NCBI RefSeq assembly: GCF_000422385.1
Contig: NZ_KE383822.1
Coordinates: forward strand, 30,053-94,052
Reading direction: 5' to 3'
DNA: 64,000 nt
Source: Microbacterium indicum DSM 19969
GTDB lineage: Bacteria > Actinomycetota > Actinomycetes > Actinomycetales > Microbacteriaceae
Within the stretch, counting starts at the first letter, position 1. Every line of letters starts with the position of its first letter. Under the pieces are notes generated by a model that was given only the letters and a program-made list of their open reading frames with translations, was not told the origin of the DNA and did not search any database. Positions 20,602-62,643 of this stretch are shown in pieces. Position numbers and translations under genes: made by a program.

Positions 20602-21238
20602 ACCCCTGATCCCGCCGCGCCCGCCGGTTCCCCCGGCCGCGCCGGCTCCCTCGGCGCCGCCGCGGGTGACCGAGCCCGAGTTCCCGCCCGCGGCCGAGCC
20701 CGTCGCCGCGCCGCCCCAGCTGGACGACGGCACCTACACCGCGATCCGCGAGCCGCGCCGCCGCGGCCTCGCGCTCGACGGAACGTGGCACCAGATCTCG
20801 CGCAAGTACGTCGCGTCGCAGATCCTGCAGGGCGTCATCGGGCTCGTCGTCACGGCCGTCGTCATGTACGTCGTCGCGACCACGACCGGGCAGTGGTGGC
20901 CTTGGCTCGCCGGAGGCGTCGTCCTCCTCGGCGAGCTGATCTCGCTCGTCATCGTGCCCCGCCAGGCGCGCGCCCTCGGATACATGCTGCGGGGCGACGA
21001 CATCGTCTTCCGGCGCGGGATCATGTGGCAGCGCGTCGTCGCGGTGCCCTACGGGCGCATGCAGCTGATCGACATCACGCACGGCCCGCTCGACCGCCTG
21101 TTCGGCGTCGCGAAGCTCAAGATGGTCACGGCCGCCGCGTCGACGGGCGTCGAGATCCCCGGCCTGTCGCAGAAGGCGGCCGACGCCCTGCGCGACACGC
21201 TGATCGAGGTCGCCGAGACCCGTCGGACCGGCCTGTGA
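20552..21238 (+). CDS. Bacterial PH domain membrane protein (YdbS-like)
   Basis: A 228-residue protein. Residues 1-65 are Pro/Ala-rich and disordered, two membrane helices follow (about 90-110 and 117-135), then a bacterial PH domain (YMLRGDDIVFRRGIMWQRVVAVPYGRMQLIDI). It is paired with the larger YdbT-like protein downstream, as in other Gram-positives, where such pairs are linked to resistance to secreted antimicrobial peptides. That link is family knowledge and was not tested here. Confidence 0.8.
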   Translation: MTENPTPPSTEPSPGSEPLIPPRPPVPPAAPAPSAPPRVTEPEFPPAAEPVAAPPQLDDGTYTAIREPRRRGLALDGTWHQISRKYVASQILQGVIGLVVTAVVMYVVATTTGQWWPWLAGGVVLLGELISLVIVPRQARALGYMLRGDDIVFRRGIMWQRVVAVPYGRMQLIDITHGPLDRLFGVAKLKMVTAAASTGVEIPGLSQKAADALRDTLIEVAETRRTGL

Positions 21239-22902
21239 GCGAGAACGCCCCCGCCGAGCACCCGGCCTCGCGCGTCGCGCGCCTGCTCGCCGACGGCGGA
21301 TCCTCGAACCTCGCCGACGGCGAGTGGCACCGCCTGCACCCGCTGACCCCGCTGTTCAAGGGCGGGCTCGTCCTGATCATCGTGCTCGGCATCGTGATCG
21401 CGAACATGCGCGACCGCCTCATCTACCTCGCGATCGGGATCTTCGCGCCCCACGAGGTCGAAGAGGCGATCAGCGCCGAATCCAACGACCCCGTCTCGAT
21501 GGGGCTCGACTGGCTCGTCGCGCAGAACCTCCTCCTGCTCGGCGCGGCCGCCCTCCTCGTGGTCGCGGTCGTCCTCGTCCTCGGGTACTGGGCCGTGTGG
21601 CGGTTCCAGCAGTTCCGGATCACGGGCGAGAGAGTCGAGATCAAGAAGGGCATCGTCTTCCGCTCGCAGCGGCAGGCCCCGCTCGACCGGCTCCAGGGCG
21701 TCGACCTCACGCGCCCGTTCCCCGCGCGCCTCATCGGCATGGCGAAGCTGCGGCTCGAGGGCGCCGGATCCGGGGCGGGCGTCGACCTCGAGTACCTCAC
21801 CGCCTCCAAGGCCGAGAGCGTGCGGCGCGACATCCTCCAGCTCGCGTCCGGCGTGCGCGCCGCGCGGGCGCAGGAGCGCGGCGGTCCCGCGGCCTCAGCC
21901 GGCGTCGCCACGGCCGGGATCCGGGGCGCCGTGGGCGCCGGCGTGCAGGGGCTCATCGAGGGCGTCGACCGCGACGACGTCGTGCCCGAGAGCGTCGTGA
22001 AGATCCCGCTCCTGCGGCTCATCGGATCGCAGGCCGTGTCGGCGATCCTCTGGATCCTCTTCTTCCTGGCGATCCTCCTCTGCGCCGTCATCCTGCCGAT
22101 CCTGCTGTTCGAGAACGGCCCCGAGCGGTGGATCATCATGGCCGGCGCGGGGTTCGCGTCGGGGATCCCCATGTTCATCGCGGTGTTCGCGATCGTGTGG
22201 TCGGCGCTCTCGAAGGGCTTCCGCTACTCGATCGCCCCGACGCCCGACGGCGTGCGGATCTCGGGCGGCCTGCTCACGACGGTGTCGCGCACGATCCCGC
22301 CGGGGCGCGTGCACGCCGTCGAGATCACGCAGAGCCTCCTCTGGCGCCCGTTCGGCTGGTGGACGGTGCGGATCAACCGCATGGGATCGCAGTCGGCGGC
22401 GCAGCAGGCGAACAGCCAGCAGCAGGCCGCCGCGACGGTGCTGCCCGTCGGAAAGCGCGCCGACGTCGAGCGCGTGGTCGAGCTCCTCATGCCCGACGCG
22501 CCCGCGGGCGACGCGCTCTTCGCCTGGGAGCACGGGATCCAGGGGCCGAAGCGCGACGACCCGTTCACGATCGCGCCGCGCCGCGCGTGGATCTGGCACC
22601 CTTTCGCCCGACGTCGTCGCGGTGTGCGGGTGACGGGCTTCGGCGTGCTGCTGCGGCGCGGGCTGTTCTCGCGCCGCCTCGCGCTCTTCCCGCTCGCGCG
22701 CCTGCAGGGCGTCTCGCTCCGCCAGGGCGTGTTCGCGCGATCGCAGCGCCTCGCCGCGCTCGTGCTGCACACCGTTCCCGGGCCCGTGACGGGGCGCGCC
22801 TCGTGCCTCGACCTCGATGATGCGCAGCGCATCGCCGACCTCGTGAGCCGGGGATCCGTCGCCGCCGCCTCGGCGGATCACACGCACCGCTGGGCGAGCT
22901 GA
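21235..22902 (+). CDS. Bacterial PH domain membrane protein (YdbT-like)
   Basis: A 555-residue protein with three bacterial PH-type repeats separated by helix pairs. The repeated core recognised near residues 135, 330 and 465 is of the form R-x-P-L-D/A-R-L-Q-G-V (QAPLDRLQGVDLTRPF, FPLARLQGVSLRQGVF). Its GTG overlaps the stop of the YdbS-like gene. The last codons and stop (CGCTGGGCGAGCTGA) are also the first bases of the tandem repeat that follows, so the repeat has fused to, or arisen from, the 3' end of this gene. Confidence 0.82.
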   Translation: MSENAPAEHPASRVARLLADGGSSNLADGEWHRLHPLTPLFKGGLVLIIVLGIVIANMRDRLIYLAIGIFAPHEVEEAISAESNDPVSMGLDWLVAQNLLLLGAAALLVVAVVLVLGYWAVWRFQQFRITGERVEIKKGIVFRSQRQAPLDRLQGVDLTRPFPARLIGMAKLRLEGAGSGAGVDLEYLTASKAESVRRDILQLASGVRAARAQERGGPAASAGVATAGIRGAVGAGVQGLIEGVDRDDVVPESVVKIPLLRLIGSQAVSAILWILFFLAILLCAVILPILLFENGPERWIIMAGAGFASGIPMFIAVFAIVWSALSKGFRYSIAPTPDGVRISGGLLTTVSRTIPPGRVHAVEITQSLLWRPFGWWTVRINRMGSQSAAQQANSQQQAAATVLPVGKRADVERVVELLMPDAPAGDALFAWEHGIQGPKRDDPFTIAPRRAWIWHPFARRRRGVRVTGFGVLLRRGLFSRRLALFPLARLQGVSLRQGVFARSQRLAALVLHTVPGPVTGRASCLDLDDAQRIADLVSRGSVAAASADHTHRWAS

Positions 22903-23030
22903 CCCGGCCGGGCCGCGCGAGGGGCGTCCTTCGTGCGGCCTTTCGCCACTCCGGCGGCCTGTCGGCGGTGAATCGGCCGCGCAGGGGCGGATCCCCGCGT
23001 GAGGGTGTGGCTTGACGCGGGGATCCGACG
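22888..23030 (+). repeat. Tandem repeat copy 1 (143 bp)
   Basis: It starts with CGCTGGGCGAGCTGACCC, inside the last codons of the PH gene, and ends with a perfect 13-base-arm hairpin (22988-23000 with 23015-23027; arm CGGATCCCCGCGT). The first 110 bases are almost identical to copy 2. The hairpin could terminate transcripts of the folate/PH operon. Confidence 0.85.
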
Positions 23031-23192
23031 CGCTGGGCGAGCTGACCCGGCCGGGCCGCGCGAGGGGCGTCCTTCGTGCGGCCTTTCGCCACTCCGGCGG
23101 CCTGTCGGCGGTGAATCGGCCGCGCGGGGGCGGATCCCCGCGTGAGGGTCGATCTCGGCGCGGTGATCTGCGTCTCGGCGGGTTCCGTGCTC
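23031..23192 (+). repeat. Tandem repeat copy 2 (162 bp)
   Basis: The first 110 bases match copy 1 nearly base for base. Its terminal hairpin is degenerate: arm CGGATCCCCGCG faces CGCGGTGATCTG, two mismatches. A 20-30 base extension follows before copy 3. Confidence 0.85.
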
Positions 23193-23336
23193 CGCCGGGC
23201 GAGTGGATCCGGCTTGGCCGCGCGAGGGTCGTCCTTCGTACGGCCTTTCGCCGTTCCGGCGGCCTGCTGACGGGGATTCGGCCGCGTGGGGGCGGATCCC
23301 CGCGCGAGGGACGATCTCGGCGCGGGGATCCGCCGG
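23193..23336 (+). repeat. Tandem repeat copy 3 (144 bp)
   Basis: A diverged copy with the same order of blocks (GTCGTCCTTCGTACGGCCTT, GGCGGCCTG, GGCGGATCCCCGCG). It ends with a perfect 15-base-arm hairpin, GGCGGATCCCCGCGC at 23291-23305 with its complement at 23320-23334. It abuts the stop of the APC permease gene on the other strand. The three copies fill the whole 435-base gap, with no other gene. Confidence 0.8.
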
Positions 23337-23337
23337 G

Positions 23338-24723
23338 TCAGCGACGCGTCTCGAGCTCGGGGCGCACCCGCCCCTCGGGCCTCACGAAGGCGGCGTAGGC
23401 GACGAGCAGGATCAGGATCCACGCGGCGCCGATGACGAGAGCCCACCGGCCCGAGGCGCTGAAGAGGAGGATCACGACGACGAACGCCATGAACGCGAGG
23501 GCGATCCGGTTGATCCAGGGCCAGAGCGGCATCGCGAAGCCGGCGCTCGGGATCCCGTCGCGCCGCATCTCGCGGCGCATCCCGCTGTGGGCGAGGAGGA
23601 TCGACGACCACGTGAGGACCGTCGCGAACGTCGCGATCGACGCGACGACGAGGAACAGCTGGTCGGGGATCCAGAGGTAGGCGAGGAGGCCGACGACGGC
23701 GCAGGCGGCGACGATCGCGACGGGCAGGATCGGGACGCCCGTGCGCGCGAGCCGCGTGAAGGCCTTCGGCGCGTGGTGCTGCTCGGCGAGGCCGTACATC
23801 GTGCGGCTCGCGGCGTAGGTGATCGAGTTCATCGCCGACAGGGCGGCCGTCAGCACGACGGCGTTGAGGATGTGCGCGGCCGCGGGGACGCCGAGCTGCG
23901 CGAAGACCTGGACGAAGGGCGACTCGCCCGATCCGATCTCGGTCCACGGGATGAGCATGAGGATCACGGCGATCGTCGCGACGTAGAAGAGCAGGATCCG
24001 GACGGGCACCGTGTTGACGGCCTTCGGGATGGATCCGGCGGGGTCGGCCGTCTCGCCCGCCGTCATGCCGAGCGTCTCGATGCCGCCGAACGAGAACACG
24101 ACGATGCCGAGACTCATGACGAGGCCCCACACGCCGAACGGCGCGAACCCACCCTCGAGCGCGAAGAGGTTGTGCGGGCCCGGCTCGAAGCCGCCGAGGC
24201 TCACCCCGAAGACGATGAGGGCGAGGCCGCCCGCGATCATCGCGATGATCGTCGCGACCTTGATGATCGTGAACCAGAACTCGAGCTCGCCGAACACACG
24301 CACCCGCAGGGTGTTGAGCCCGCAGATCAGGAGGATCGCGGCCGCCATCCAGACCCAGCCGGGGGCGTCGGGGTACCACATGCCCATGTAGCTCGCGACG
24401 GCCGTCATGTCGGCGATCGCGACCACGATCATCTCGAAGGTGAAGGTCCACCCCGTGAGGAACCCCATGAGCGGGCTCACGTATCGGCTCGTGTACTGCG
24501 CGAAGGATCCCGCGACGGGGTCCCGCACGGCCGTCTCGCCGAGGGCGCGCATGACGGCGAACGCCGCGCACCCCGCGATGACGTAGGCGACGAGGACGGC
24601 GGGGCCTGCCGCCTGGATGGTCTCGGATGATCCGTAGAACAGGCCCGTTCCGATCGCGGTTCCGAGGGCGATGAACCGGATGTGGCGGAGCGACAGGCTG
24701 CGTCCGAGGTGCGAGGTGGACAT
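23338..24723 (-). CDS. APC family amino acid permease
   Basis: A 461-residue permease with twelve predicted helices. The start MSTSHLGRSLSLRHIRFIAL, followed by GTAIGTGLFYGSSETIQAAGPA, is the conserved TM1 region of the amino acid transporter (AAT) subfamily. GETADPAGSIPKAVNTVPVRI is the conserved cytoplasmic loop. It imports an amino acid with protons; the specificity is not clear (proline, aromatic and histidine carriers look alike). A TACTGT box lies eight bases before the ATG on the minus strand. Confidence 0.9.
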   Translation of the reverse strand: MSTSHLGRSLSLRHIRFIALGTAIGTGLFYGSSETIQAAGPAVLVAYVIAGCAAFAVMRALGETAVRDPVAGSFAQYTSRYVSPLMGFLTGWTFTFEMIVVAIADMTAVASYMGMWYPDAPGWVWMAAAILLICGLNTLRVRVFGELEFWFTIIKVATIIAMIAGGLALIVFGVSLGGFEPGPHNLFALEGGFAPFGVWGLVMSLGIVVFSFGGIETLGMTAGETADPAGSIPKAVNTVPVRILLFYVATIAVILMLIPWTEIGSGESPFVQVFAQLGVPAAAHILNAVVLTAALSAMNSITYAASRTMYGLAEQHHAPKAFTRLARTGVPILPVAIVAACAVVGLLAYLWIPDQLFLVVASIATFATVLTWSSILLAHSGMRREMRRDGIPSAGFAMPLWPWINRIALAFMAFVVVILLFSASGRWALVIGAAWILILLVAYAAFVRPEGRVRPELETRR

Positions 24724-43121: not shown

Positions 43122-43126
43122 CCGAA

Positions 43127-43191
43127 GACTCTCCTTTTCTCCGTGTTTTCCCCACGCGAGGCGTGGGGAAAACACGGAGAAAAGGAGAGTC
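43127..43191. terminator. Perfect 31-bp hairpin, murB/aspC
   Basis: Arms at 43127-43157 and 43161-43191 are exact complements (31 bases) around a GAG loop. The stem carries TTTT and AAAA tracts. It sits between convergent genes (stops at 43121 and 43201) and should stop transcription both ways. Confidence 0.9.
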
Positions 43192-43200
43192 GAGGGTGGG

Positions 43201-55729: not shown

Positions 55730-56410
55730 ATGTTCACGCCCGACCTCGAATCTCGGATCGTCGCCGATTCGCGCGACCGGGTCGCGTGGATGCGGGCGCG
55801 CTCGCAGGGGATCACGGCGACCGACGTCGCGCACCTCTCGACGCCCGCGTCGATCCTCCGTGCGGCCGAGCACAAGCTGCGCCCGTCGAGCTTCGGCGGC
55901 AACGCCTACACCGACCACGGCCGGAGGCGCGAGCCCGAGATCGCCGCGTGGGTCGAGGAGCACCACGGGATCCAGCCGTCGACCTCGCTCTTCCGCGCCG
56001 AGGCCGAGAAGCGCCACCTCGCGACGCCCGACGGCATCGTGCAGCAGTCCGACGGCGTGATCGTGCTCGCCGAGATCAAGACGACGAACAAGCCGTGGCG
56101 CACGATCCCGCGCGCCTATCTGCGGCAGGTCTGGTGGCAGCAGCACGTCCTCGGCGCCGAGCGCACGCTCTTCGCGTGGGAGGAGCACCGCGACTTCCGC
56201 CCGCTGCACGACGAGCCCAAGACGGTGTGGATCGACCGCGACGAGAAGGCGATCGCCGAGCTCGTCGCGAAGGCCACGGCGCTGATCGACGAGCTGTACC
56301 GCATGACGACCGGGCAGTCGATCCCGCAGGACGGGCTGTCGCCGCGCGAGCAGGCGATGCTCAAGGCCGCGACGGCCGACGCGTACCGGGCGCTCGCGCT
56401 GACCGACTGA
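55730..56410 (+). CDS. YqaJ-type (lambda exonuclease fold) nuclease
   Basis: A 226-residue protein with the YqaJ/viral recombinase nuclease fold. GITATDVAHL is the N-terminal block, GNAYTDHGRRREPE carries the first acidic ligand (Glu 68 or 70), ATPDGIV gives Asp 101, and VLAEIKTTNKPW gives Glu 115 and Lys 117 of the D-ExK core. Relatives resect dsDNA ends with a single-strand annealing partner in phages. Here no phage gene is near. TAGGCT is seven bases before ATG 55730. Confidence 0.82.
   Translation: MFTPDLESRIVADSRDRVAWMRARSQGITATDVAHLSTPASILRAAEHKLRPSSFGGNAYTDHGRRREPEIAAWVEEHHGIQPSTSLFRAEAEKRHLATPDGIVQQSDGVIVLAEIKTTNKPWRTIPRAYLRQVWWQQHVLGAERTLFAWEEHRDFRPLHDEPKTVWIDRDEKAIAELVAKATALIDELYRMTTGQSIPQDGLSPREQAMLKAATADAYRALALTD

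Positions 56411-59397: not shown

Positions 59398-62643
<3,246 letters not shown>

Follow-up and report, generated by a model that had tools for sequence, protein, structure and literature searches.

A candidate palindromic intergenic repeat of the genus Microbacterium, apparently amplified in tandem in Microbacterium indicum

In Microbacterium indicum DSM 19969, the gap between two convergent genes, one for a PH-domain protein and the other for an amino acid permease (APC), is filled from one stop codon to the other by three copies of a repeat, which raises the question of what this repeat is: a terminator, a mobile element, the product of local slippage, or something else. We examined the repeat in the 64,000-nucleotide stretch of contig NZ_KE383822.1 that contains it (hereinafter, the window), in the rest of the genome, and in other species of the genus and the family.

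The array between the PH-domain and permease genes

The sequence-only reading of this DNA had described three copies spanning the whole convergent gap, the first two nearly identical and the third diverged, and this description was confirmed. The array (22888-23336) consists of three direct copies, in register at 22866, 23009 and 23171, that is, at steps of 143 and 162 bp, and occupies the 435-bp gap between the PH and APC stop codons; identity to copy 1 is 94% over 138 bp for copy 2 and 82% over 143 bp for copy 3. TRF reports a period of 143 with 99% matches over 22888-23149 and a period of 162 with 86% matches over 23031-23330, and the GC content at the locus is 0.75-0.78. The features are listed below; the models R1 and R2 and the half-sites, whose orientations are given as > and <, are introduced in the following sections.

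21235-22902, plus strand: PH-domain gene (bacterial PH, bPH_2, three stretches), left flank
22888-23030, plus strand: copy 1, including the last PH codons; R1 core at 22910-23027
22926-23004, plus strand: four-half-site core (< < > >) of copy 1, which aligns with the element of the relatives; R2 E 0.012
22988-23027, no strand assigned: GGATCC hairpin of copy 1, 13-bp perfect arms (22988-23000/23015-23027) and a 14-base loop
23031-23192, plus strand: copy 2, first ~119 bp 99% identical to copy 1, with ~19 bp of extra spacer; R1 core at 23053-23170
23069-23147, plus strand: four-half-site core of copy 2; R2 E 0.043
23193-23336, plus strand: copy 3, diverged, 82% identical to copy 1; R1 core at 23215-23332
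23231-23309, plus strand: four-half-site core of copy 3, the nearest of the three to the element of the relatives; R2 E 3.7e-5
23291-23334, no strand assigned: GGATCC hairpin of copy 3, 15-bp perfect arms (23291-23305/23320-23334) and a 14-base loop
23338-24720, minus strand: amino acid permease gene (AA_permease), convergent right flank

As had been claimed, the first copy begins within the final codons of the PH gene, whose stop codon is at 22900-22902, and copies 2 and 3 also contain forms of the last bases of this gene, so the duplicated piece included the PH gene end. Thus, to judge from the sequences, the copies within this gap look like products of local duplication that took in the end of the PH gene. 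The terminal inverted repeats ascribed to every copy are perfect, with arms of 13 and 15 bases, in copies 1 and 3, unlike copy 2, in which the arms are mismatched. Open reading frames cross the array on both strands, but the unit occupies intergenic stretches elsewhere in the genome and no ground for a coding interpretation was found; the earlier verdict that this is not a gene is upheld. A search of positions 22700-23500 against Rfam yielded three matches (best E 0.55), each under its own gathering score. Within the window, R1 detects the three copies, on both strands, and one other match with an E value of 0.62. Elsewhere in the window, long low-complexity repeats of the GTCGGC type are found at 60000-60905, within a predicted minus-strand gene (59398-62643).

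Comparison of the PH locus was feasible in 18 relatives, the locus of a nineteenth ending too early. In 17 of the 18, the PH gene is followed after 44-488 bp, on the same strand, by a gene with a DUF2520-type Rossmann motif, leaving no room for a permease; in M. indicum, the permease gene sits between these two genes. The convergent PH/permease gap was therefore not seen in the sampled relatives, and the array arose or arrived together with, or after, the change that involved the permease. Arrays lie directly against the genes on either side. No empty site came to light; in the relatives, the gene order at the PH locus differs.

Copies across the genome and their half-site lattice

With copy 1 as the query, blastn (40 of 99 candidates scored) found at least 36 places at E <= 0.1 in the 2.81-Mb genome, some of them inside genes. 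Alignment of 24 copies from 11 gaps (A1) yielded the covariance model R1, which, with both strands counted, produced at least 112 matches at E <= 1; 55 placements with 38 bits or more, counted on one strand each, resolve into 44 non-overlapping copies in at least 16 gaps, a lower bound given that the count rests on the best 150 of the 8294 first-look candidates. Five of the 16 gaps are outside the training set of R1, and three of these (C9:76 kb, C1:445 kb and C1:50 kb, with 10 copies) were first found with the model. Four early blastn places (L073-L076) that lie inside predicted genes were dropped, and so was a match at C23:4739 (L116; E 0.96), as a chance match.

The sequence-only reading had envisaged an expanding element, to be abandoned if the core occurred nowhere else; the family search found the unit in 15 other gaps, and direct repeats of 178-186 bp were detected in the four other arrays tested (L065, L066, L072 and L115). 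By eye, the spacers differ between array loci, and local growth of the arrays is well supported by these sequence comparisons. Slippage confined to the PH/APC gap would explain the versions of the PH gene end found in copies 2 and 3 and the 99% matches at period 143 over 22888-23149, but the presence of the unit in 15 other gaps refutes it as a full account, a role for which it has next to no credibility, so that it fits only the copy number within the locus. A run of N at L065:1223-1232 lies inside an array of near-identical 180-bp repeats, so the assembly may have collapsed copies there. There is also a regional bias: contig C1, with 19% of the genome, holds 8 of the 16 arrays (P 0.006).

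Six half-sites with the core CGCGCGGCC make up the unit, an imperfect palindrome; their order, > < < > > <, is unchanged by reverse complementation, so most copies match on the opposite strand as well. The R1 consensus spans 118 model positions and contains six conserved cores, each of them CCG or CGG. When half-sites (CGCGCGGCC with at most one mismatch) were counted in 7,619 bp of the 16 arrays, with array limits set by hand, 144 were found, compared to 54.7 +/- 6.8 in 100 dinucleotide shuffles, and the distances between them are strongly constrained: same-orientation steps of 19 were observed 14 times (0.14 in shuffles), < > steps of 24 nine times (0.15), and > < steps of 20-21 seventeen times (0.17). 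Autocorrelation using a looser motif gave mixed peaks only. The central spacer shows 56% column identity and no gaps across the 24 aligned copies. The earlier emphasis on GGATCC hairpins is justified in so far as GGATCC is common among these copies, but it is not invariant, and, judging from the alignment, what is conserved is the half-site lattice and not the hairpin.

A related element in other species of the genus

The search with R1 yielded a match in another species of the genus (G339; E 3e-5), which led to a related element with four half-sites (< < > >) and the core CTTCSCKCGGCC; blastn with the G339 element produced matches in 4 of the 20 genomes tried, including that of M. indicum (E 4e-5). 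We then searched 366 genomes of the genus with a strict dyad pattern whose centre could be 6-24 bp long and obtained 15 sites in 11 of them, namely, 13 sites in 10 of the 365 relatives and two in M. indicum itself. Although any length in this range was allowed, the centre is exactly 15 bp in all 15 sites, which fall into eight locus groups by flank similarity, so that the fixed length is unlikely to be due to chance ((1/19)^7 under a flat null). A control pattern read backward, which also forms a hairpin, occurs by eye in about 55 of the 366 genomes, against 11 for the pattern itself, so only the fixed spacing, and not the number of sites, stands out. The control pattern is itself a GC-rich hairpin, found once or twice in each of these ~55 genomes, and might represent a further conserved hairpin.

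When the 13 sites of the relatives are aligned (A2), a CGG and a CCG flank the searched pattern at a distance of exactly 19 bp in all 13 cases, the same geometry as that of the inner four half-sites in M. indicum. The spacers of these sites are 60% conserved, as opposed to 85% in the half-site columns that the pattern did not fix, again without a single gap. Single copies with the same geometry thus exist in other species of the genus. A sequence-only model built from the 13 sites (R2) matches the arrays of M. indicum, with the best E value of 6.8e-13 in 101,315 bp. At the array in the window, R2 gives the E values listed above, weak for copies 1 and 2, and elsewhere in the window it has one match (55753-55800, E 0.05), so the link to the genus runs through the family and not through the window locus alone. 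On 47 other loci (162,613 bp), R2 produced 18 matches at E <= 1, all on seven loci that hold the element, namely, five blastn-found sites, one training site encountered again (L145 = L163), and the array of the window itself (L117); the remaining 40 loci gave no match at this threshold. In the reverse direction, R1 is weak on 19 loci of the relatives: the best E value is 4e-7, most values lie in the range from 0.0001 to 0.8, and L139 and L146 have no match.

Comparisons with the complete unit reached less far. Blastn with the array against 57 relatives gave short matches only (best E 1.3e-4), and at E <= 1e-6 the array was found in one of 366 genomes of the genus, that of M. indicum, among the best two candidates per genome. 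R1, applied to the best 9-10 candidates per genome, found 2 of 361 genomes in the genus, M. indicum and the single site in G339, and M. indicum alone among 398 genomes of 85 genera in the family; the filters in these scans were stricter, and for M. indicum itself they displayed no more than 10 and 9 matches, respectively, so weak or diverged copies can be missed. A pattern scan of a collection of named genomes, which may leave out the records of M. indicum, gave four single hits (two Actinomadura, one Streptomyces and one MAG); these were treated as chance, given that R1 had only one match at those loci, with an E value of 0.41 and off the pattern. In five species (L150, L153, L155, L157 and L159), the element is found beside matching flanking DNA and thus can persist at one place by descent. 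Taken at the level of sequence, the element appears to be a dispersed palindromic intergenic repeat of the genus that has been amplified in tandem in M. indicum.

Gene context, folding and competing explanations

The unit lies between called genes in 13 of the 16 gaps; in the remaining three (L067, L068 and L070), predicted frames enter the array, and gene starts were placed by eye. Eleven gaps are convergent (the window, L061-L066, L069, L072, L114 and L115), three are co-directional (L067, L071 and L113), and two are divergent (L068 and L070, with one copy each), an assignment that was partly made by eye. In the window, a simple gene caller finds 10 convergent pairs among 63 neighbouring gene pairs; the excess of convergent gaps has a P value of 3e-6 at this rate, 0.0003 at a rate of 1/4 and 0.004 at 1/3. 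Apart from the gap with the array, the window has nine convergent gaps, 3-79 bp long, and three of them contain, by eye, one unrelated hairpin. The 79-bp gap at 43122-43200 is filled by an extended, nearly perfect inverted repeat, one arm rich in T and the other in A, that looks like an ordinary two-way terminator, unlike the array.

RNA folding of the three window copies is moderately better than that of shuffled sequences (z-scores -2.4 to -3.9), and that of three elements from relatives is strongly so (-5.2 to -10.8). The pairing is register-specific, dropping from 83% to 36-51% when the partners are slid. Compensating changes, however, are hardly above the level in shuffles: 12 changed cells against 11.3 for the three local hairpins, and 16 against 14.2 for the nested form, with seven double-changed pairs against 4.2 (7 of 500 shuffles); in the relatives, there are 28 double-changed cells against 21.7 (22 of 500 shuffles), and the other measures are not raised.

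The repeats could be plain bidirectional intrinsic terminators, similar by chance and subsequently duplicated, an explanation that we consider unlikely. Hairpin I (GGCCGCGCGAGG...CCTTCGTGCGGCC, then TTTCG) resembles a GC-rich terminator, the copies fold better than shuffles, and the position is mostly convergent. Against this, a search for T-tract terminators in 22700-23600 found none (0.2 expected in shuffles), two gaps are divergent, the other convergent gaps of the window do not exceed 79 bp, and, by eye, the L114 array adjoins a separate hairpin (~1680-1720) and the element in the relatives' loci L138 and L158 is preceded by a T-rich hairpin. At L115, the hairpin overlaps the last copy of the array. 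Of the terminator-like character proposed at the outset, hairpins at a convergent junction stand, and classical intrinsic termination is not supported at this locus. Alternatively, the half-site lattice might offer a platform on the DNA to a sequence-specific protein that either is nucleoid-associated or recruits a topoisomerase, with arrays between convergent genes relieving or containing positive supercoiling; recruitment of a topoisomerase (gyrase) has been proposed for BIMEs. The constant length and drifting sequence of the spacers, both in M. indicum (56%) and in the relatives (60% versus 85%), with no gaps in either, speak for this possibility, and the convergent bias (11 of 16 gaps) is in line with it, as is the state of the two variable stem pairs in the relatives (28-58 and 30-56), where 7 of 26 cells are unpaired, 2 are compensated and 17 are unchanged. 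Nevertheless, a 19-bp step amounts to ~1.8 helical turns, so the sites are not on one face of the helix, no binding protein is known, and fixed spacing is equally expected if the element is copied as a unit; we hold the platform to be doubtful. A shade more doubtful is its more specific version, in which a half-site code of the genus (CTTCSCKCGGCC, 19-15-19) would be read by one dedicated, undescribed DNA-binding protein, with phase-locked arrays of up to ~1 kb serving as insulators between converging genes.

Mobilization by a Y1 (RAYT) transposase, as in REPINs and BIMEs, is suggested by a series of parallels in position and form. According to PMC3733652 and PMC3116915, elements of the REP/BIME/REPIN type are palindromic and intergenic, with inverted pairs able to form hairpins, lie mainly downstream of genes and are sometimes repeated in tandem along with flanking DNA; REPs occur mostly between convergent and co-directional ORFs, in some genomes in tandem clusters (PMC3733652), and REPINs are inverted doublets tied to RAYTs (PMC3116915). 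All the same, a search of the 28 contigs of the M. indicum genome for Y1_Tnp (PF01797), the check for a linked transposase called for by the sequence-only reading, gave no match at E <= 0.001, whereas 5 of 14 control genomes were positive, and neither a GTAG nor a CGTC tag is among the invariant or near-invariant columns of the 24 copies. As both are defining traits of REPs, the element is not filed here as a REP, and this origin strikes us as very improbable. Furthermore, each arm consists of two same-orientation half-sites and not, as in the REPs of those accounts, of one short palindrome, and compensatory changes, reported there as common in REPINs, are scarcely in evidence. The array had no match in plasmids or phages, and the element of the relatives had no plasmid match and no viral contig with the exact longer dyad. 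Of the two terms applied to this element at the outset, "expanding" is borne out and "mobile" is unproven, no REP-associated transposase having been found. According to PMC2229807, ERIC/IRU and RUP elements are similar in being ~100-130 bp long, dispersed, intergenic and non-autonomous, with long stem-loops, but they possess inverted repeats at their termini, TA ends and duplicated target sites, features that could not be seen here, and differ from the GC-rich, tandemly arrayed element of M. indicum. The STAR elements of Staphylococcus, as described in PMC3532100, are likewise intergenic repeats with locus-specific sequences and different loci in each species, and they expand and contract at fixed loci; they are described as direct repeats, however, and not as a dyad-symmetric lattice. 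We found no earlier description of the element in the open-licence literature, which was covered partly by title and abstract.

The explanation that we favour, with modest confidence, sees in the array tandem copies of a small, mirror-symmetric repeat, intergenic and without coding function, that would have grown by unequal recombination and would either form a hairpin barrier at gene 3' ends or simply be tolerated there; we prefer such a barrier or neutral tolerance over a binding lattice. Under this scenario, an ancestral palindrome of four half-sites, ~85 bp long, would have been dispersed between loci. In this species, array growth would then have followed from template switching or unequal recombination at these palindromes, chiefly in gaps with gene 3' ends on either side. 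There, GC-rich hairpins formed by the converging transcripts might serve as a barrier in both directions or protect 3' ends, or else be harmless.

These findings add a palindromic intergenic repeat family to a large genus, in a genome without a detected REP transposase. Since some species have single copies and another has arrays, the growth of such elements can be studied, and it can be asked whether convergent gene ends select for them. The combination of fixed spacing with drifting spacers also makes the binding-protein hypothesis directly testable.
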